Below, piece after piece: positions 1 to 18,718 of a stretch of DNA of 18,718 nucleotides; the first letter of the stretch is position 1, and every line of letters begins with the position of its first letter. Source of the stretch: Deltaproteobacteria bacterium (GTDB lineage: Bacteria; Myxococcota_A; JAADFL01); NCBI GenBank assembly GCA_013152945.1, contig JAADFL010000141.1, positions 1 through 18,718 on the forward strand, written 5' to 3'. The notes beneath the pieces were generated by a model, which was not told where the DNA came from, did not search any database, and saw nothing but the letters and a program-made list of their open reading frames with translations. The position numbers and the translations under genes were made by a program.

Positions 1-1196
1 GTGACCTGAATATGGAGTAAAGCGCTTTCCCCATCCTTTGGGCCGGACCCGGTATATTCCAGCTTGATGTCCTGGTGTCCGCCCGGAACTATTTCACCGT
101 TTCCTGGTTCTATGGACAACCATGGTTTATCCGAGCGGGCGATCCAGGGACCGGGCGCGCCGCCGCAATTTTCAAGCCTGAGCATGCGAAACCTTTCCGG
201 ATGCTTTGGATCAAGCTCGATGTTTGCAGGAAGGTTACAGAAATCCGCCTTATCCTGTTCCTGCATTTCGAATCGCATGGCCATGGAACCGATACCCGAT
301 GCCCAGTACTTGATTCGAAAGAATCCGTTTTCACCCCAATCAGGTCCCCAAGAATTCTTGACTATCCAGGCCTGGTCTTTTTCATTCCAGCCGATGAGGG
401 AGACGGCATGGTACCCTTCTATGGTGGCGTCTTGGCTTTCCATGTACACTCCTGATTTATAGAACCTGAAGTCGGAATATACTGCTAGAGAAACTGGGAC
501 AGGCCTCCAGAAGATTTCAGCCCTCAACCTGTCGATTATCTTCCTGTCATCCGGTCCCATGGGGCCGAGCAAAGCAATCGGCACATGACTTTGTGTCTTG
601 ACCCTGTCTGTGCACGAGGCTGCTCTGCAAGCATTATCTGCAGCCTTGTAAGGGTAGCACGATTCATATGACACACCGTAATTTTCCAGGTACGCCGGGA
701 GCTTGCCCCAAGTGCCGCCGCCGTTGCAACCTCCGGAATCAGAGCAATCAATGATGTCCTGTTCAGAGAGATCGACATCGTTTGTGCCGTCAAAAGGTGT
801 TTTATTGCGAATCAGGAAAATGGATTCGACAGCGGCAAGGGAGCCGAAGGCCCAGCATGATCCGCATTGCGCCTGGTCCCTGACCGGGGTGATGAAGGAA
901 ACCCCCCCGCGGTTCCTCCAATCCAAGGCATCCGGAAGACCTGTGGCCGGTATTTGAGGCGGAGTATAATCGCTGCTGCGGGTGAAGGAAGCAAGTGCCT
1001 TTTCCATCAGGCTTGGAGGTATAAGGAGCTTCCTGAATTCTTCGGGTTTTAAAGATGAAACAGGAGTTTCGCCTGCCTGCCAATCCAAGCCCTGGCTTTC
1101 TATGGCCTGTTGGACTTCCTCGAGTCCTGGTTCGCGGGTTAATGTATTGTCCAGGCCCGGCAACAGGCTGATTAACATAATAGTACATGAAAGCAT
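1..1196 (-). CDS. Papain-like (C1 family) cysteine peptidase, partial (3' end outside window)
   Basis: Reading the minus strand from an ATG at 1196 gives 398 codons with no stop before the left edge, so the C-terminus is missing. All papain catalytic elements are visible: oxyanion Gln108 and nucleophile Cys114 in QCGSCWAF, His263 in GYHAVSLIGW, and Asn281 in VKNSWGPDWGENG. A short prosegment (about residues 20-85) precedes the mature domain, which begins near LPDALDWRNRGGV. After the peptidase, from about residue 318, comes an Ig/BACON-like beta region (PWLSIEPGNGEIVPGG). The enzyme should be an exported endopeptidase. The ATG has AGAGGTG four bases upstream, but the signal peptide starting there (MLSCTIMLISLL) lacks a basic n-region. 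In-frame codons upstream, back to a stop at 1254, are rich in Lys and Arg, so a non-ATG start near 1230-1235 is possible. It is divergent from the phosphoesterase lipoprotein gene. Confidence 0.9.
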   Translation of the reverse strand, partial: MLSCTIMLISLLPGLDNTLTREPGLEEVQQAIESQGLDWQAGETPVSSLKPEEFRKLLIPPSLMEKALASFTRSSDYTPPQIPATGLPDALDWRNRGGVSFITPVRDQAQCGSCWAFGSLAAVESIFLIRNKTPFDGTNDVDLSEQDIIDCSDSGGCNGGGTWGKLPAYLENYGVSYESCYPYKAADNACRAASCTDRVKTQSHVPIALLGPMGPDDRKIIDRLRAEIFWRPVPVSLAVYSDFRFYKSGVYMESQDATIEGYHAVSLIGWNEKDQAWIVKNSWGPDWGENGFFRIKYWASGIGSMAMRFEMQEQDKADFCNLPANIELDPKHPERFRMLRLENCGGAPGPWIARSDKPWLSIEPGNGEIVPGGHQDIKLEYTGSGPKDGESALLHIQV

Positions 1197-2897: not shown

Positions 2898-5800
2898 TCA
2901 CTCCAATGACATTCCGAGGTTTTTCCGTACCAGAAAATATTGATCGCTCAAGGCAAATTCCAGGAGTTTTGCTATCCTCTTGGACTTGGCAAGAGGACTT
3001 AGCATATTCACACTGTCGGAAATTCTTATTTGTCCGTCAGTTTCCTCATCTTGCAAGAGTGCTGATACGGCCACTCCAAGGTCGCCGCACAACACGAATC
3101 CTGCCCTGTCAGCAGTCGTTGTCAGGGCCTGCACATAGGATTCGAAATCCAGCTCACCAATCCTGTGAGCCAATGTTTTGATCATGGGTTCGAGGACTTT
3201 TCTGCTCTTTCTGGGCAGACCCTTGTATAGTTTTTTCGATATTTCATCGAGTTCCGCTTGGTCGATTCCGGGAAGGGGAAAGTCCGGTTCGAAATTGTGA
3301 ACCACTGCGGCAAACACCTTCCTTGTTGCATCCGCTCCTATCTTGGTGAATAGCGCTCCCCGGTTGACGAGCAGCTCTATTGCCCAGGCCAGGTGGAACT
3401 TCTGAACAGGCCTGGTCTGGCGTTCCAACTCTGAAGAAATGATCAGGATTGGAGGGGCGCCGATAAAGGCCTTAATCGGCTTATCGGAATTCGTATGTAT
3501 GTAAGCATCGTAACCCGGCAGTCCAAGTTGAGAAGCAAAGTCATCAAGGATTTTTCTCAGGTTGGCGTTAGACCTGGTAGACAGGCGGTTCGACCTTCCG
3601 AGCCCCAGGGTCTTCAAGGGGTTCTCCGGGTAGAGGCGCGTAAGGCCTTCCCCGATTATGGATGCGACATTGCGCAACAAGCCCCTTTCATCCTTGTGTG
3701 TGATGATGCTCTCGTGGTCTTCCTTGGTGAGCTTTGCCGCGGGTTCCTTGGGTATCTTCGCCCTGTTTTCGGAAATAAAGTCCATTTCCTCGTCATTTGC
3801 ATCCTTCAAGTACCGGATAAATGAAGTCACAAGATATGCCTTATCTGTTTCACCGAGTTCACGATAGAGCCTGCCTAGCGCGTGGAATGCCTCGTACTGC
3901 AGGGGATCCCGTGCAACTATTTCCTTGTAAGTCTCGATTGCCTCTTGCTTGCCGACCGGGGTCGCCGCCATGAGGTTTGCAAGGGTTATTTTCAGGTGAG
4001 TATTCGATGGGATATCATTGACCGCCCTCCTGTAGAGCCCGATGGCCTTATCCATGTCGTTCAATTGATTTATGTACAGGTCTCCCAACTCGTCGAAAAG
4101 TTCTATCGCCTCCTGTCTAACCTCGATAGGCGCTGTGGACAAGAAATTGTCATAAGCGGATGCAGCCTCTTGAATCCGGTTCTGGGCCTTGTACATCTCA
4201 ACGATGTTTTTGACTGCATCCAAGCTGGCTGGATCTACCTCGAGTGCTCTCTGGTAACAAATTTCTGCATTCGCAGTATCATTGAATCCTTCTTTGTATG
4301 CTATAGCCAACTTGAGGTAATGATCGACCAATCGTTTTCTGCTGGTCTCCTTGGTGATTAGTTTGTTGATGGTCTCGAGGGCATTTCTCCAGTCCTGGAC
4401 TTGCAGGTACAAGCCCCCCAGCTTTTCGAGGGCCGCCACATTATCAGGGTCGAAAGCAAGAACCGCCTTGAAATATTCCATCGCCCCTGTTGAATCGGAA
4501 AGTTTCTCTTCGAGTAAAGTGCCCTGTTTGAAATTCAAGGCAATAAGTTCTTCCCGGCTGCCGCCCAGTTGAATGAGCCTCTTCAGCAAGTCTTTTGCTT
4601 CCGACCATTTCTCGAAAGATATCTTCAGGTCACATAACGTATAGAGCGCCTGCTTGTTGTCGGAATCCTGCTCCAAAGCCTTTGCAAGATAATCCTGTGC
4701 CTTGTCCACGTCATCAAGCCGTTCCAGGCAAAGCCTGGCAGCCTTGTCGTACAGAGCAGCCAATTCACGTGGCTGTTGTTCGTTTCGAATTCTTGTCTCG
4801 TACAGTTCCAGGAGTTCCTGGTATTCTCCCTGTTGGGCCAGGAGAGCATCCAGCAATCTAAAGGATTCTCCATGAAGCGGGTCCAGTTCCAAGACCTTTA
4901 AGAATCCTTGCTTTGCCTTCTCCGGATCGGCGAGCTTGTTGAGGGAAATGAAACCTATCTGGAATTGCGTTGCCACGGCTTGATATGGAGATTGTGCGGC
5001 CTCGGCTTCTTTTTTCAGAATCGTGAGCAAGTCTTGCCAGCGTTTCAATCTTGTCAACATGCGTTTCAACGCCTTAATGGACGGTAGATAGGTAGGGTCG
5101 TTTTCCAGTGCTTCCGCATAATATGCAGCCGCCTTTTCCTTGTCTTCCGTATTCTTGTCCCAGAGGTCTCCGAGTTGATGAGCGAGTACACATCTTTCCG
5201 TGGGATCTTGCGCGGATTTCTTTTTCCGCTCCAGCGTCTCTGCAAGGCCCTCCCATACGCCGGCTTTCTTATACAGGTCCTCCAGGGCGTCCAGCGCCAT
5301 CTTGTTGAACGGATCGATTTCCAGCACCTTGAGATAATGGTCTCCCGGTGCTGCTTTGTCCTGCAACTTGTTTTCAACCAGTTTGGCCATCTCCAGTTGT
5401 AGCGCTACCTGTGAATCGCGGTCACCTACCAGCTCCGCCAAACGGGAGAGTACTAGGTAAAGCTTTTCCCACTGTCCTTTGCTTCGATAGGTCTCCTCGA
5501 GTATCCTTAAAGCGACCAGGTTGGATTGGTCGATCTCAAGGATTTGTTCGTAGCAGTACAAGGCCGCATCGGGGTTGGACAGTTTTTGATCATGTATTTC
5601 GGCCATTACTTGCAATAGGGTCACTTTTCGGTTGGCTGAAGTCGTGCCCGCCAACTCCGCCTCGTATACCGTTATCAGTTCGCTCCATTGCCCTGTTTTT
5701 ACGTATAATCTAATCAGGGATCGTATTGCAGGCAGGTAACCGGAGTTTGCATCCAGGGCCTGTCTATAGGCTTCGACCGCCTTTTCGGGATCATCCAGTC

Positions 5801-12867: not shown

Positions 12868-13563
12868 GTGCCCAAATTAGTGGAAGACAAAGACCTGTTG
12901 GCAGCGTTTCAAAGGGGTGAGAAGTACGCCCTTGAGGAGGTTTACAGGGAGTATGCTCCGCTGGTGTTCTCTATTTTAAGAAAGGGCTTTGTTTTTACCA
13001 CGGATCGGGGCCCTATGCGGTTCCAGGGCTTTGACGACCCTTTTGACCTGGAGAACGCTATGCAGGAGGTGTTCGTAAGGGCGTTGTCCAAGGCTGCGAG
13101 GCAGGGTTACGACGGTCAAAGGCCTTTTGGGCGTTACCTGTCCGCCATTGCAAGGAACCTGGTGCACGACGAATTCAGGAAGAAGGAGAGGCTGTTCGAG
13201 GAGCTGGACCAGGCAAAGGTGGAGGAGATTTCCAGGCAGGAGCACGTTCAGTCCATACCCGGGCCTGACAGGCAGGCCCAGGAGCAGGAGGTGAGGGCGA
13301 GAGTCGGCGAGTTCAAGACGGCGTTGGATGGGCTGGAGCGCCGTATATTCGAGCACAGGTTCGAGATGGGCATGTCCATCGAGCGGACTGCAATGTCACT
13401 TGAGGTGACCGAGCACAGGGTCAAGAAGGTCGAGCGCCGCCTCAAGAAGCGCTTCTTCCTGCAAATGAAGGAGCACGGTTACTTCGAGGGGTACAGGCTC
13501 TCCAGGAACGGGGTGGAGAGGATAGGAGCCATGCTCTGCATGTGTCTTGGGGGCCGGCTATGA
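12868..13563 (+). CDS. ECF-type sigma-70 family RNA polymerase sigma factor
   Basis: A protein of 231 residues with a two-domain ECF layout. Region 2 spans about 9-106 (LLAAFQRGEKYALEEVYREY, then ENAMQEVFVRAL and FGRYLSAIARNLVHDEFRKK). Region 4 spans about 145-200 (ALDGLERRIFEHRFEMGMSI, then a helix-turn-helix around MSLEVTEHRVKKVERRLKKRF). There is no region 3. An unusual stretch (about 38-58, GFVFTTDRGPMRFQGFDDPF) is inserted inside region 2, and a 30-residue tail ending in a hydrophobic Cys/Met-rich segment follows region 4. The GTG start has GGAG five bases upstream. Its stop overlaps the anti-sigma start as ATGA. It should direct RNA polymerase to a specific regulon, probably including its own operon, and be held inactive by the next gene product. 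Confidence 0.88.
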   Translation: MPKLVEDKDLLAAFQRGEKYALEEVYREYAPLVFSILRKGFVFTTDRGPMRFQGFDDPFDLENAMQEVFVRALSKAARQGYDGQRPFGRYLSAIARNLVHDEFRKKERLFEELDQAKVEEISRQEHVQSIPGPDRQAQEQEVRARVGEFKTALDGLERRIFEHRFEMGMSIERTAMSLEVTEHRVKKVERRLKKRFFLQMKEHGYFEGYRLSRNGVERIGAMLCMCLGGRL

Positions 13564-14447
13564 AGCACGGTGAGGCAAGGCGGCTGGTTCACGCCCTGTT
13601 CGTTGATGGAGTCCTACCGCCCGGCTCGGCCTCCAGGCTGGACGAGCACTTGCGGCAATGTTCTGCGTGCGCGAGCCTGTACTCCAGGTACGCGCGACTC
13701 GAGGACGCACTGTGCAATGCTCCGGACAAGGGGACCGTGTTTTCCAGGGACAGGGTCATGGCCAGGGTCATGGAGCAGGTCCTGCCATGTGCCACAGGGT
13801 CGCCGAAAAGGACTTCTCGCCGGGCACGGCTTGCCTTGTCAGCAGCAGTGCTCGCCGCGGCTGCAAGCCTGGTACTGGTGCTCGCTCCACCTGGAAGAGA
13901 TGACTCCAAGGTAGACTTGCCTCCCGGCGCACGGCTCCTGGAGGTGGGGCCGGTGTCAAAGGGCGGAGAGGCAACCGATACCTCGAACGTAGGAATAAGG
14001 ATGTTCAAGGTCACTGACCGGTCCAGGCTCGAGGAGGCGGGCGAAAAAGGTCTTGACTTGAACGATGTGGTCACGTTTACATATACAAACGTTGAAAAAG
14101 GGATAGGTTATCTTGCACTGTTCGGCCTGCAGAGCGGGCCCGAAGTGCACTGGTATTACCCTGGATATGAGGGCAGCGAGAGCATTCGAATACGTAATGG
14201 CGTGGTGGACGAACCCTTGGGCCATGGATTCAAGCTTTGTGTAAACCACGAGCCGGGGCCCCTGGCGGTTGTAGCCGTGTTCTCGGGAAGGCCGCTTGAC
14301 AGGGAAGAGCTGGAGCGGATCGTGAAGAAAAAGATGCATTCCACCGTAGGGCTCGATCAGGTTTGCCCCATTGGAGTAAAGGGGGTGCTCGAGCACTGCC
14401 TGTTTACGGACATCGGGGAACCGGTAGGCCATGGAAGGTGCAATTAG
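13560..14447 (+). CDS. Membrane-bound zinc-type anti-sigma factor with extracytoplasmic sensor-like domain
   Basis: A protein of 295 residues. The cytoplasmic N-terminus (1-85) has a zinc anti-sigma signature, His30-x3-Cys34-x2-Cys37 (DEHLRQCSAC), with a possible additional ligand at His11. One membrane segment (about 89-110, LALSAAVLAAAASLVLVLAP) follows a basic stretch. The exported part (about 115-295) contains VVTFTYTNVEKGIGYLALFG and EVHWYYPGYEG, resembling DUF4384-type domains seen beside bacterial caspases, and ends without a second membrane segment. The ATG overlaps the sigma stop; a GTG at 13542 would add six residues and is less likely. It should sequester the sigma factor until a signal reaches the outer domain. 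Confidence 0.8.
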   Translation: MKHGEARRLVHALFVDGVLPPGSASRLDEHLRQCSACASLYSRYARLEDALCNAPDKGTVFSRDRVMARVMEQVLPCATGSPKRTSRRARLALSAAVLAAAASLVLVLAPPGRDDSKVDLPPGARLLEVGPVSKGGEATDTSNVGIRMFKVTDRSRLEEAGEKGLDLNDVVTFTYTNVEKGIGYLALFGLQSGPEVHWYYPGYEGSESIRIRNGVVDEPLGHGFKLCVNHEPGPLAVVAVFSGRPLDREELERIVKKKMHSTVGLDQVCPIGVKGVLEHCLFTDIGEPVGHGRCN

Positions 14448-14457
14448 GGGGTGCGGG

Positions 14458-16722
14458 ATGTCAAGGGCGGAAAGATTCTGTGCTGTCTTGGTGTTCGTCT
14501 CGGCCATGGGCGCGGCTTTTACTGCCGGCGCAGGCGAAAAGAGGCTGTACGCGGTTGTAATCGGCAACGACCAGAGCCTGGACAAGGGCGTGTCGCCTCT
14601 TTCGTACGCCGACGACGATGCTGCCAAGTACTTCGAGCTGTTCAAGGCCATGGGAGCAAGGGTGGCCCTGTTCGCGGTGCTGGACCCGGACGCGCAGAAG
14701 CGCTTTCCAGCCGCTGCCGAGGCATCGAAGCCGCCCAGGCGACGGGACGTGCTGCGGGCCGTCGACAGGTTCTTCGGAAGGATCGAGGCGGACAAGGAGG
14801 ACGGCCGGGAGACCCACTTCTACTTCGTGTACTCGGGCCATGGCAATATCGGGCCGAACCGGGAGGGGTACATAAATCTCCTGGATGCCAGGTTTCGGCG
14901 GTCCGAGCTGTACAAGGAGGTGATAGCAAGATCGCCTGCCGACTGGAACCACCTGCTCCTGGACGCGTGCCATTCGTACTTCCTGGTAAAGAAGCGCGGA
15001 GCAAAGCCGGACAGCCAAGGAGATTACCGTGACGTGGTCAAGGACTTCATGAGGAACGAGGACCTGGAGCATTATCCAAACGTGGGCGTGATCCTGGCTG
15101 CATCGAGCGAGTCCGAGACCCACGAGTGGAGCAAGTGGGAGTCTGGCATATTCTCGCACGAGCTGCGCAGCGCCATGCTTGGCGCGGCAGACGTGAACCG
15201 TGACGGCAAGGTCACGTACAAGGAGGCTGCCTCGTGCGTGGAGGCTGCCAACGCAGCAGTGGAGGACCCCAAGGCCAGGCTGAAGGTATTCTTCAGGCCC
15301 CCGCCTGCAAGGGTGGACCTGGCCCTGGTGGACCTGTCCTTGTTGAAAGCCAAGCCTGTGCTCGAGTTTCCAAAGGGCATGGAGGGAAGGTTTCACATCC
15401 AGGATTCGCGCGGGGTGCGCGTGGCGGACCTGCACCCGTCAGGCGAGCAGAACGTAGGGGTGCACCTTTTGGGCAAGGCGCCGTTTTTCCTGAGGATCAG
15501 GGGAATGGAGGCAATGGTCCCCGAGTCCAGGGCCAAGGTGGCGGTACAGGACTTGACCATGAGGAAGTACACGGCTTCCAGCAAGGGCAGCGTGGAGCAG
15601 AGCTTCAGGCGGCATCTGTACGAGCTGCCGTTCGGCCTCGGCTTTTTCAGGGGGCTCACTGCTGCTGTGCAAGGGGCGGGTCCCGCCAGTGGCCCGAGGC
15701 CTGACACAGCGGCCGATGCCGGCACACGGATCCCGCCTGCGCAACCTCCTTCAGGCGGTGAGAAGCTGGCGGTGCTGGACCTTACGGCATCTGGCGTGGA
15801 TAGGTCCCTTGCGTACAACCTTTCCGAGGTCATGGCTGACGCGGCTGGCAGGGCAGGCACGTACTCTGTGCTGTCCATGACCGACATAGAGAGGCTTCTC
15901 GCCTTCGAGGGAGAGAAGCAGAAGCTTGGGTGCGAAAGCGATGTATCCTGCCTGGCCGAACTGGGCGGGGCCCTGGGCGTGGACAAGCTGCTCACGGGCA
16001 GCGTGGGCAAGATAGGCAGCACGTACCAGGTGACATTGAAGCTCCTGGATATAGTGCGCGCAGATGTTTTGGACCGCAGGACCGAGACCGTGAAAGGCGA
16101 TGAGTCCAACCTGATAGACGCGGTCAGGCTCATGACAACAGTCATGCTGGCAGGCGCAGGGTCTGGCAAGGGTATGCTGTCGCTGGTTGTGTCCGTGCCC
16201 GGTGCAGCCATCATGGTGGACCACCGGAGCGTGGGCTATGCTCCTCTTTCCAAGCCAATAGAGCTTGCGCCCGGCAAGCACAGGGTGACTGTGCAGGCCC
16301 CGGGGTACGAGCCGTTTGCAAAAGACGCGGTCGTCCCGTCCGGTGACAGCGTGGACCTCGTGGTGGCGTTAGAGCCTGTAGCCAAGCCCGGTGGTGGTAT
16401 GAGCTTGAGCACGTGGGGTTACGTTTCGCTGGGCGTTGCCGCGGCACTGGGGGCAGGGGGAGCCGCAGCCGGGGTCCTAGCCAGGCAGTCACACGACGAG
16501 TTCATGAAGGCGGATGACCAGAACCGGGCATTGGATCTGAAGGACGAGACAGATGCCAGGGCCCTTGCAGCCAATGTGCTGCTTGGAACAGCAGGCACTG
16601 CTGCCGCGGCTGCCATGGTCCTGCTGATAATGGATTGGGTTAGTGACGAAGCCCCGAGTGCAGGCGCAGCGGTATTGCCGTCTGCCGGCGGTGCATTGGT
16701 GACCGGAGTCTTGGCATGGTGA
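14458..16722 (+). CDS. Exported caspase-like (C14) protein with EF-hand, CsgG/TolB-like and PEGA domains
   Basis: A protein of 754 residues. Residues 1-26 form a signal peptide (MSRAERFCAVLVFVSAMGAA). The caspase-like domain (about 28-235) starts with LYAVVIGND and has the catalytic His128 in YSGHGN and Cys171 in LLLDACHSYF. Residues 245-256 (DVNRDGKVTYKE) are a perfect EF-hand loop. About 260-395 is a beta-rich region, and 397-426 a Pro/Gly linker. Residues 427-556 (LAVLDLTASGVD to LKLLDIVRADVL, with one Cys pair) look like the CsgG/TolB-like domain that builds aggregate scores from envelope lipoproteins. Residues 552-620 are a PEGA domain (PGAAIMVDH, APGKHRVTVQAPGYEPF). Two hydrophobic segments (621-645 and 674-697) end the protein. 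The start with AGGGGGT upstream yields a proper signal peptide; an in-frame ATG at 14431 is the alternative. Third gene of the sigma operon. The substrate is unknown. Confidence 0.85.
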   Translation: MSRAERFCAVLVFVSAMGAAFTAGAGEKRLYAVVIGNDQSLDKGVSPLSYADDDAAKYFELFKAMGARVALFAVLDPDAQKRFPAAAEASKPPRRRDVLRAVDRFFGRIEADKEDGRETHFYFVYSGHGNIGPNREGYINLLDARFRRSELYKEVIARSPADWNHLLLDACHSYFLVKKRGAKPDSQGDYRDVVKDFMRNEDLEHYPNVGVILAASSESETHEWSKWESGIFSHELRSAMLGAADVNRDGKVTYKEAASCVEAANAAVEDPKARLKVFFRPPPARVDLALVDLSLLKAKPVLEFPKGMEGRFHIQDSRGVRVADLHPSGEQNVGVHLLGKAPFFLRIRGMEAMVPESRAKVAVQDLTMRKYTASSKGSVEQSFRRHLYELPFGLGFFRGLTAAVQGAGPASGPRPDTAADAGTRIPPAQPPSGGEKLAVLDLTASGVDRSLAYNLSEVMADAAGRAGTYSVLSMTDIERLLAFEGEKQKLGCESDVSCLAELGGALGVDKLLTGSVGKIGSTYQVTLKLLDIVRADVLDRRTETVKGDESNLIDAVRLMTTVMLAGAGSGKGMLSLVVSVPGAAIMVDHRSVGYAPLSKPIELAPGKHRVTVQAPGYEPFAKDAVVPSGDSVDLVVALEPVAKPGGGMSLSTWGYVSLGVAAALGAGGAAAGVLARQSHDEFMKADDQNRALDLKDETDARALAANVLLGTAGTAAAAAMVLLIMDWVSDEAPSAGAAVLPSAGGALVTGVLAW

Positions 16723-16753
16723 ACCAAGGTTTATTTTTCCATGGGTCTTTTTA

Positions 16754-16791
16754 TCACCGAGCGCGTATCGGCAATACGTATATAACGGTGA
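16754..16791. repeat. Nested inverted repeat between the caspase and Kelch lipoprotein genes
   Basis: TCACCG (16754-16759) pairs with CGGTGA (16786-16791). Inside it, CGTAT (16764-16768) pairs with ATACG (16774-16778) around the loop CGGCA. It begins 31 bases after the caspase stop and ends 53 bases before the lipoprotein start. It has no T-run after it, so it is not a classical terminator. It could be an operator or an RNA hairpin that tunes expression of the downstream gene. Confidence 0.4.
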
Positions 16792-16844
16792 CAAGGTCTT
16801 GCATGCCGTAGGATCGCTGGGGCAATTTGCGGGAGGGAGTGAAC

Positions 16845-18718
16845 ATGACCAGGAGAGTTTTTACATCGCTTTTACTGATATACTTGGCTGGCTGCAGCTT
16901 CGACTTCAACAACCCCGTGCTGGACCTTCCCCGCGGTTCCGTGATGGGCAAGGTGGTCAAGGAGGTGGAAGGCAGCGGTGGCTCCCAGCCTGTAAAGGGC
17001 TGCGTGGTGAGGCTTCGCGGCTCTCCCCTTGCTGTTCTTACCGGCTCTGACGGTTCGTTCCTCCTGGAGCACGTCCCGGATGGCAAGCATGTGTTGGACG
17101 TTGTCTTGGATCAGGACGGGGACGGCGAGGCGGAACTCAAGGCAGAGCGTGATGTTAGCGTTCATGGTCACAGCTCCAGGGATGTGGGCAAAATCCTGTT
17201 GAAGTGGACCGGCACTGTCAAGGGGCATGTTCTTCTCGATGGTAAGGTGCCGGGGCGGCCGGGGGTGACCGTGTTCGTGCCTGGGGATTTTGGCGTTTCA
17301 TTGGCTGACGAAGAGGGATTGTTTGCACTGAGATATCTTTCGCCCGGTAACAAGCGGGTCTGCGGTTACGAGCCTGGCTACAAGGTTTCCTGTGTGCAGG
17401 TGGTTGTTGAGGCCAGGAGTGACAAAGACGTGGGCGAGATAGATCTTGTAAAGGAAGAGGGGGAGCCTCCGAAGGTTTTGGTGAAGGGTGTGGCCGGGCT
17501 CCTCGGCGATATTGGGGAGTCTGGCCATGCCGGTATCCTGGTTCGTTTGATGCACGGCCAGGAGGAGCAGGGCAGGGCGGTGACAGGTGGTGATGGGGGT
17601 TACAGCATAAGTGGCGTTGCACCTGGTTCGTACGAGGTCGTTGGGACATTGGACGGATACAAGGAGGGCCGTAGCTTCACCTTCTTTGTTGCCGGCGACG
17701 TGGACCCGGTCCATGCGCCGTCGATCTGGCTTGCGCCTGTTGACGGCTCATCAGGCAAGCCTGACTGCGACCTGGACGGCAAGCCGGACGACGAGGACGA
17801 TGACGACGACAACGATGGGGTATTGGATGGAGATGATGCATTCAGGTGCGATCCAGGGGAGTGGAAGGACACGGACAACGATGGCATCGGCGACAACCAG
17901 GACGATGACGATGATGGGGACGGAGTGAAGGACTTCGAGGACCTGTGCCCGAAGAAGAAGGGCTTAGTGGAGAATGATGGTTGTCCTGAAGGGGATGCAG
18001 ATACTGATACGGACACGGACACCGGCACGGATACCGGCACGGATACGGATGTTGATACGGATACTGACACGGATACGGATGTTGATACGGATACTGACAC
18101 GGATACGGATATTGATACGGATACTGACACGGATACGGACACGGATACGGACACGGATACGGACACCGATACAGATACTGATACAGACACAGATACAGAC
18201 ACAGATACAGACACAGACACAGACACAGACACGGATACGGATACCGACACGGATACTGATGCGGATACGGATACGGATACTGATACGGATACCGATACAG
18301 ACACGGACACTAATCAACAGTGCCAGGGAGGATGCCCGGAAGGGCAATATTGTATTGACGGCAAGTGCTCATCAATTTGGGTGGAATATCATGACTTGGA
18401 TATCCATTATCCAGGAACTGTCGAAACATGTTGTTTCGCGAACCCTTCGTGCGCGCAAGGCAATGGCAAATTGTATTGTAGCGGGGGCCCGTATCCTTCG
18501 GCTATGCGAGATTTCAAAATATTCGATTTAGAAAACAACCAATGGTCCGATGGACCCACCAGGGATAGATCATCATATTCTCATGCCCCTGTGTGGTTCG
18601 ATGGCTTGTTCTGGAATATTGCCGGGTATACCGGCACCGCTGGTACCGGGGCGGTTTCTGTATATGATCCAACAGAACAGGTTTGGAAAACAAAGCCCAG
18701 CTTGCCATGGGGTATGGG
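16845..18718 (+). CDS. Surface lipoprotein with regulatory-like beta domains, Asp-Thr tract and Kelch repeats, partial (3' end outside window)
   Basis: The ORF runs 624 codons from an ATG with GGGAG five bases upstream to the right edge without a stop. The N-terminus MTRRVFTSLLLIYLAGC is a lipoprotein signal with lipobox LAGC (Cys17). Three carboxypeptidase-regulatory-like domains follow (about 31-125, 127-205, 214-300; e.g. GGDGGYSISGVAPGSYEVVG). Then comes an Asp-rich, thrombospondin-type-3-like region (about 310-383; DTDNDGIGD, DGDGVKDFEDLCP). An Asp-Thr dipeptide stalk covers 386-489, then a Cys-rich knot, CQGGCPEGQYCIDGKC (about 492-508). The start of a Kelch propeller follows (about 515 onwards; KLYCSGG, IFDLENNQWSDGP, VSVYDPTEQVW). 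It is probably outer-membrane anchored, with the Kelch head displayed on a calcium-binding stalk. It follows the caspase gene by 122 bases on the same strand. Confidence 0.88.
   Translation, partial: MTRRVFTSLLLIYLAGCSFDFNNPVLDLPRGSVMGKVVKEVEGSGGSQPVKGCVVRLRGSPLAVLTGSDGSFLLEHVPDGKHVLDVVLDQDGDGEAELKAERDVSVHGHSSRDVGKILLKWTGTVKGHVLLDGKVPGRPGVTVFVPGDFGVSLADEEGLFALRYLSPGNKRVCGYEPGYKVSCVQVVVEARSDKDVGEIDLVKEEGEPPKVLVKGVAGLLGDIGESGHAGILVRLMHGQEEQGRAVTGGDGGYSISGVAPGSYEVVGTLDGYKEGRSFTFFVAGDVDPVHAPSIWLAPVDGSSGKPDCDLDGKPDDEDDDDDNDGVLDGDDAFRCDPGEWKDTDNDGIGDNQDDDDDGDGVKDFEDLCPKKKGLVENDGCPEGDADTDTDTDTGTDTGTDTDVDTDTDTDTDVDTDTDTDTDIDTDTDTDTDTDTDTDTDTDTDTDTDTDTDTDTDTDTDTDTDTDTDTDTDADTDTDTDTDTDTDTDTNQQCQGGCPEGQYCIDGKCSSIWVEYHDLDIHYPGTVETCCFANPSCAQGNGKLYCSGGPYPSAMRDFKIFDLENNQWSDGPTRDRSSYSHAPVWFDGLFWNIAGYTGTAGTGAVSVYDPTEQVWKTKPSLPWGM
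18000..18311 (+). repeat. Hexanucleotide GAYACN tandem array encoding 52 Asp-Thr-type dipeptides
   Basis: The 312-base tract is made of six-base units (GATACG, GACACG, GATACT, GATACA, GACACC), each encoding Asp-Thr. A few variants give Gly-Thr (GGCACG), Asp-Val, Asp-Ile and Asp-Ala. Within it, a 30-base higher-order unit starting GTT/GTT/ATT-GATACGGATACTGACACG repeats three times with near identity (18051-18080, 18081-18110, 18111-18140). A second block at about 18170-18235 uses mostly ACA for Thr. All changes in copy number stay in frame. Confidence 0.95.

Follow-up and report, generated by a model that had tools for sequence, protein, structure and literature searches.

An exported caspase encoded with an extracytoplasmic function sigma factor and its membrane anti-sigma factor in Myxococcota: a candidate site-1 protease

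Why should a bacterial caspase with an export signal be encoded directly behind a sigma factor and a membrane anti-sigma factor? The roles of bacterial caspases, which are related to enzymes of animal cell death, are largely open, and the usual framing is that of death or defence enzymes. The question is raised by a stretch of 18,718 nucleotides (the window), which is the complete contig C141 (JAADFL010000141.1) of the 4.84 Mb draft genome of a Deltaproteobacteria bacterium (GCA_013152945.1). Four open reading frames (ORFs) lie there on the + strand at the positions given in a first-pass annotation, encoding an extracytoplasmic function (ECF) sigma factor, an anti-sigma factor, a caspase and a lipoprotein. 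What is new here is a pair of residues, [R/K]-[G/S], that is nearly invariant (basic in 61/61 and Gly/Ser in 60/61 sequences) and lies in a predicted disordered periplasmic linker of the anti-sigma factor. This motif is conserved, flexible, cut-site-like and placed just outside the membrane; the caspase therefore probably cuts the anti-sigma factor, and by doing so probably turns on the sigma switch. The features concerned are listed below, with caspase residues numbered from ATG 14431.

12868..13563, + strand: ECF sigma factor, 231 amino acids, GTG start (TIGR02937 and PF04542 over cut-off)
13560..14447, + strand: zf-HC2 membrane anti-sigma factor (zf-HC2 over cut-off) with a periplasmic DUF4384-like ectodomain (AlphaFold2 model)
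13956..13967, + strand: S133-K134-G135-G136 of the anti-sigma factor, periplasmic linker motif with the conserved [R/K]-G and proposed site-1 cleavage site (alignment column, low model confidence, comparison of linked and unlinked proteins)
14458..16722, + strand: exported caspase with signal peptide, caspase domain, beta domain, TolB_N-like domain, PEGA domain and predicted C-terminal transmembrane hairpin (PF00656 and PEGA over cut-off; AlphaFold2 model and fold matches)
14839..14841, + strand: catalytic His137 (SGHG), invariant in 52 relatives
14968..14970, + strand: catalytic Cys180 of the DAC motif, with Asp178 as the expected S1 acid, both invariant in 52 relatives
14995..15000, + strand: R189-G190, proposed site of self-processing in the flexible loop that follows the catalytic Cys (R 96%, G 90%)
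15190..15225, + strand: EF-hand-like loop DVNRDGKVTYKE in the caspase (D254 and E265 invariant, D258 94%)
15583..15588, + strand: second [R/K]-[G/S] site of the caspase, K385-G386, in a loop of its tail ([R/K] in 49/49 and [G/S] in 48/48 ungapped relatives)
16845..18718, + strand: lipoprotein (lipobox LAGC) with regulatory-like domains, a calcium-type stretch, an Asp-Thr (DT) repeat and the first part of a Kelch region; the contig ends within the gene

The first three genes are tightly coupled. A GGAG lies immediately 5′ of the GTG start of the sigma gene, and the anti-sigma gene begins at ATG 13560 with a four-base ATGA overlap with the sigma gene. The longest ORF of the caspase (14431-16722) starts at an ATG that overlaps the anti-sigma gene by 17 nucleotides, while an alternative start at ATG 14458 has a good Shine-Dalgarno sequence (AGGGGG) and yields a clean signal peptide; the latter is most likely the start used, and with it the ten-base gap past the anti-sigma stop that had been annotated before is reproduced. 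No sigma-70 promoters were found, and terminators were no commoner than in shuffled sequences, none lying between the caspase and the lipoprotein.

Chance can be excluded for these three genes because their order is conserved across the phylum. Five further caspases are encoded in the same genome, and each of the six found (6/6) has a linked sigma/anti-sigma pair; in several cases a lipoprotein gene adjoins the module or lies within it. A search with the caspase part, blind to neighbours, gave matches in 76 of 377 genomes from the phylum; 60 loci were fetched, of which 55 had a sigma and/or anti-sigma gene nearby, two were at a contig edge and three had neither (i.e. 55/58 evaluable caspase-selected loci linked). 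A profile of the anti-sigma transmembrane helix and ectodomain matched 147/377 genomes, and in the loci fetched, which overlap in part and make up a partly redundant set, 156/166 anti-sigma family matches had a caspase within 4 kb. The order sigma, anti-sigma, caspase was found in 111/114 distinct complete modules, so that the first three genes whose conservation the first-pass annotation had proposed to check form one conserved unit that is not unique to this contig. In 95% of the 111 modules the anti-sigma and caspase genes overlapped or were separated by no more than 20 bp (median −4), the overlaps being upper bounds because spacing was measured from the first in-frame starts. A named collection of 80 loci, titled Myxococcota, Deltaproteobacteria, Proteobacteria or unspecified bacteria and including the genera Archangium, Hyalangium, Enhygromyxa, Plesiocystis, Paraliomyxa and Nannocystis, had a detectable sigma and/or anti-sigma gene at 73 loci; one of the seven others (L317) has an HxxxCxxC anti-sigma gene on the opposite strand, adjoining the caspase, and proximity thus persists there despite a broken operon. 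No modules were found on plasmids with the window caspase as query, and a single weak Runella caspase was found with the C199 query. Among unusual arrangements, locus L039 encodes an anti-sigma factor apparently without its zinc finger (4712-5377), with a lipoprotein gene inserted between the anti-sigma and sigma genes, and loci L131, L132 and L136 have neither sigma nor anti-sigma gene, L131 and L132 carrying a second caspase ORF close by.

The window sigma factor contains sigma regions 2 and 4 only, as expected of the ECF class (TIGR02937, 74.7 bits against a cut-off of 42.9; PF04545 slightly under its cut-off, 21.7 against 24.1). The anti-sigma factor combines an HxxxCxxC finger with one transmembrane helix (ASDI type); zf-HC2 reached 27.8 bits against a cut-off of 22.2 and was matched in only 17/50 anti-sigma relatives at E ≤ 0.01. 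Its AlphaFold2 model shows a single transmembrane helix (residues 87-108) and a beta ectodomain whose first strand begins at residue 144, and the protein is predicted to act as a membrane-anchored brake on the cognate sigma factor. DUF4384 is weak in the window protein (E 0.087, under cut-off) and was dropped as a firm label of its ectodomain, the name being backed through the relatives only (10/50 matching at E ≤ 0.01). A fold search with the ectodomain gave no significant match.

The pair in the linker emerged, without any pattern search, from an alignment of 61 anti-sigma sequences covering the transmembrane helix and ectodomain at 18% mean identity. At the position of window K134 there are 52 R and 9 K, and at the next position 55 G, 5 S and 1 A; both belong to the four well-filled columns with the lowest entropy, and every other column is at most 53% basic. 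In the window protein the pair lies within residues 114-139, between the transmembrane helix and the first ectodomain strand, a segment modelled at a predicted local distance difference test score (pLDDT) below 50, and its distance to the transmembrane helix varies between relatives (standard deviation 8 residues). An [R/K]-G within 40 residues after the transmembrane helix was present in 102/114 caspase-linked anti-sigma factors (55.6 by shuffling), the longer form hydrophobic-x-x-[R/K]-[GSA] in 82/114 (29.3 by shuffling) and RxKG in 48/114 (2.1 by shuffling). Unlinked controls, namely 17 zinc anti-sigma factors with a transmembrane helix and no caspase, taken from this genome and six others, gave 7/17, 4/17 and 0/17, respectively (Fisher p 2e-5 for [R/K]-G in linked vs unlinked proteins). 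A conserved pair in a disordered, length-variable linker looks like a recognition or cleavage site, which these alignments and models suggest rather than prove. K-type families have TRxKGG in the loop behind the catalytic Cys of the caspase and xRxKG in the anti-sigma factor, and R-type families have LVxxRG and FxxRG, respectively. In one further locus (L383) three tandem copies of the motif occur in the linker (FRVKSDAPAST repeats), and the caspase loop has K (LVYDKG).

On the caspase side, PF00656 covers residues 40-253 (34.2 against a cut-off of 21.4 bits), a match seen with the 420-amino-acid N-terminal part and unreported for the whole protein of 763 amino acids and in the whole-genome search. 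The domain and the His-Cys dyad place the protein in peptidase family C14, and protease activity is predicted. Positions invariant in an alignment of 52 caspase sequences include D85, G136, H137, D178, C180, E232, W233, D254 and E265. The Asp of the DxC motif gives an S1 pocket for basic residues (Arg/Lys) in metacaspases and MALT1; it is kept in all detected relatives but one and is present here as D178, the expected acidic S1 residue, as in orthocaspases and metacaspases with a basic P1. The caspase core was modelled with a pLDDT of about 97, and the folds nearest to it are those of MALT1, Geobacter GSU0716, metacaspases and legumain (the last three with VIA Z 17-19); MALT1, in which an Ig-type beta domain follows the caspase fold, gave the best Foldseek matches (E 1.5e-7), but with TM-scores below 0.45 over the whole model. 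A sequence search of the PDB returned mainly calmodulin-type EF-hands and Geobacter GSU0716. EF-hand Pfam models matched 12/52 relatives at E ≤ 0.01, the window caspase being sub-threshold, and the EF-hand-like loop (residues 254-265) suggests calcium dependence.

Pairs similar to that of the anti-sigma linker occur in flexible loops of the caspase itself. R189-G190 follows the catalytic Cys, the classical position of caspase processing, within a segment (residues 181-210) modelled at a pLDDT of about 50-75, and [R/K]G was found in this loop in 108/114 modules vs 23 in shuffles; K385-G386 lies in a tail loop with a pLDDT of about 66. A hydrophobic N-terminal segment was present in 99/115 caspases, and the predicted export signal of the window protein agrees with its earlier description as exported. 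Many caspases end in Phe, like outer-membrane barrels, and one paralogue exceeds the OMP_b-brl cut-off, while the window caspase ends in a predicted transmembrane hairpin. The C-terminal half of the latter (window 15680-16722; TolB_N-like, PEGA and transmembrane hairpin) recurs about 25 times in the genome (L009-L034), mostly without a caspase, and these copies make up a large unexplained family of envelope proteins.

We propose that the sigma, anti-sigma and caspase genes encode one envelope-signalling device. The ECF sigma factor would be held at the inner membrane by the membrane anti-sigma factor, and the caspase would be exported and anchored, through an inner-membrane hairpin here and an outer-membrane barrel in several relatives, which would put its active site in the periplasm together with the anti-sigma linker. 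Upon an envelope disturbance, perhaps together with a calcium signal acting via the EF-hand-like loop, the caspase would first cut its own loop at R189-G190 and then the anti-sigma factor at K134-G135 (site-1 cleavage), and the site-2 protease of the cell would then free the sigma factor. A site-2 protease of the kind used in regulated intramembrane proteolysis is encoded in the genome (PF02163, E 1.6e-57). The first-pass annotation had raised the possibility that the caspase cleaves the anti-sigma factor; to this the [R/K]-G pair in the disordered periplasmic linker adds a candidate site, while the circuit, i.e. cleavage at the motif, its activating effect, the sequence of steps, the triggering signal and the regulon, is still what we infer. 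On sequence grounds we regard it as reasonably likely that the caspase performs the site-1 cleavage of the anti-sigma factor encoded with it; this reading accounts at once for the coupled genes, the common compartment and the motif. That exported, membrane-anchored caspases of Myxococcota form a large class of dedicated site-1 proteases, each recognizing a hydrophobic-x-x-[R/K]|G (or xRxK|G) pattern that its activation loop shares, in similar form, with the linker of the preceding anti-sigma factor, and thereby have a role in envelope signalling, seems to us an evenly balanced proposition.

Several points weigh against this proposal. Protease activity and sigma release are predictions, and so is site-1 cleavage, of which only the motif is shown. 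The unlinked control anti-sigma factors carry mostly different ectodomains, and controls with the same ectodomain and no caspase are few (L302, L280 and L253); the related proteins L302 and L280 lack the motif and also a nearby sigma gene, while L253 retains it (TRIKGG) without a linked caspase, its genome having caspases elsewhere. No sigma gene is linked to three caspases of the window family (L131, L132 and L136), which come from two genomes of one genus. The window pair is itself mismatched, with R in the caspase loop and K in the anti-sigma factor. Covariation of R and K between the two sites reached a Fisher p of 8e-13 in a plain contingency table, the matching rules having been adjusted between counts; it is lost after phylogenetic correction and is not used as evidence, because the match is mainly one deep split with only 3-4 independent contrasts, which is not significant.

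If the caspase were solely an output, another protease would free the sigma factor, the operon would be turned on and the caspase would act on other envelope proteins. Operon coupling is compatible with such an autoregulated output, as is the enrichment of lipoproteins downstream (see below), but it would not account for an [R/K]-G pair that is almost invariant in the disordered linker of the anti-sigma factor or for the similar pairs in the caspase, and we consider this explanation unlikely. The pair might instead be a structural or folding feature of the ectodomain family, unrelated to the caspase, given that it lies close to the first beta strand in K-type families and that L253 keeps it without a linked caspase; its predicted disorder and variable spacing, together with its absence from the two same-ectodomain proteins that lack sigma and caspase, speak for the contrary, and such a feature appears decidedly unlikely.

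The same motif evidence would apply were the signal to run from anti-sigma factor to caspase, the anti-sigma factor inhibiting or anchoring the caspase with its [R/K]-G linker or DUF4384-like ectodomain as an active-site pseudosubstrate. DUF4384 and a caspase do occur in one polypeptide in other proteins, but a long flexible linker at a variable distance fits a substrate better than a fixed inhibitor, and we judge this arrangement very unlikely. Highly improbable, finally, is a caspase that serves as an effector of cell death or defence and is under envelope sigma control by coincidence: bacterial caspases are often discussed as such effectors, and Myxococcus metacaspase operons have been tied to developmental lysis (PMC3501461), but the export signal and envelope anchors of the caspase, the lack of any PADLOC match among the window proteins and the six caspase copies in one genome all argue otherwise.

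The lipoprotein gene, which starts at 16845 after a gap of 122 bases, is a loose companion outside the conserved core. The encoded protein has carboxypeptidase-regulatory-like domains and one Kelch motif over cut-off, an Asp-rich calcium-type stretch and a long DT repeat, and would be located at the cell surface; the gene is cut off because the window is the whole contig. Lipoproteins filled 13/38 same-strand positions directly downstream of caspases vs 25/389 background ORFs (p 3e-6), and these were unrelated proteins of different kinds, so that a lipoprotein neighbour is enriched but replaceable and the conserved fourth member anticipated in the first-pass annotation was not borne out. Nor did the sigma-binding motif expected upstream of both 12868 and 16845 materialize beyond a nine-base match, CGGCAATAC, which chance could give. 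In a close relative (L310) the downstream lipoprotein begins GCFGFDNP, similar to GCSFDFNNP in the window, and the lipoprotein may be a target or a hitch-hiker. Long Asp-Thr dipeptide repeats were seen in lipoproteins near modules in the window (18000-18310), L038 (12075-15200) and L287 (330-3428). At the other end of the window (3-1196, − strand) a papain-like cysteine protease (DQAQCGSCWAF), apparently exported and cut by the contig start, was noted by eye.

A link between sigma factors and caspases is not new, because sigma factors were noted in 2012 in four M. xanthus metacaspase operons, and sigma-70/metacaspase operons also in Anaeromyxobacter, Haliangium, Sorangium, Ralstonia and Fibrobacter (Asplund-Samuelsson, PMC3501461). 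Like the present module, these are conserved operons in which a sigma gene is joined to a caspase gene, while the passages concerned mention no anti-sigma factor, envelope placement or cleavage motif and suggest a role in developmental lysis. Our literature search, a limited negative with most subscription papers outside it, returned no description of the anti-sigma factor, the envelope placement or the R/K-G site. The result is a widespread set of caspases for which partner, compartment, cut site and output are all predicted, and the question is therefore reduced to a single cleavage assay; M. xanthus, given its four reported operons, would permit genetics if its anti-sigma factors carry the motif.

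Caspase genes likewise adjoin ECF sigma genes in the bacterial EACC1/EACC2-caspase conflict systems (Kaur 2021, PMC8195603), which differ in being centred on EACC domains and TRADD-N; the window caspase scored 19.1 bits against a cut-off of 140 with the NCBIfam model NF047832 for EACC1-associated caspases. In the Csx29-Csx30-CASP-sigma system of type III-E CRISPR (PMC10028731) a caspase-like protease similarly acts by cutting a protein that inhibits an ECF-like sigma factor, but Csx29 is a TPR-CHAT protease activated by RNA-guided Cas7-11, whereas the window encodes an exported C14 caspase and a membrane zinc anti-sigma factor; Pfam found no CHAT or TPR domain in the caspase (P0003), and no CRISPR gene was recognized by eye among the window ORFs. 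If our proposal is true, the module would be a parallel to Csx29 without CRISPR, and the caspase would join the site-1 proteases that control ECF sigma factors. As in RseA/DegS/RseP, an ECF sigma factor would be held by a membrane anti-sigma factor and released by a periplasmic site-1 cut followed by a site-2 protease; the proposed site-1 enzyme, however, is a caspase of the same operon and not of DegS or PrsW type. The proposed site would also bring a MALT1-like R|G preference into bacterial signalling. The best MALT1 substrate is LVSR, with P1′ taken nearly always by Gly and next by Ser (PMC6207715), and the optimum of AtMC9 is VRPR (PMC4713714). MALT1 and AtMC9 are eukaryotic enzymes whose identity to the window caspase in structural alignments is only about 12-16%, but they share with it the caspase fold and, as proposed here, a basic P1; LVSR|G is similar to FxxR|G and LVxxR|G, and VRPR to xRxK|G.

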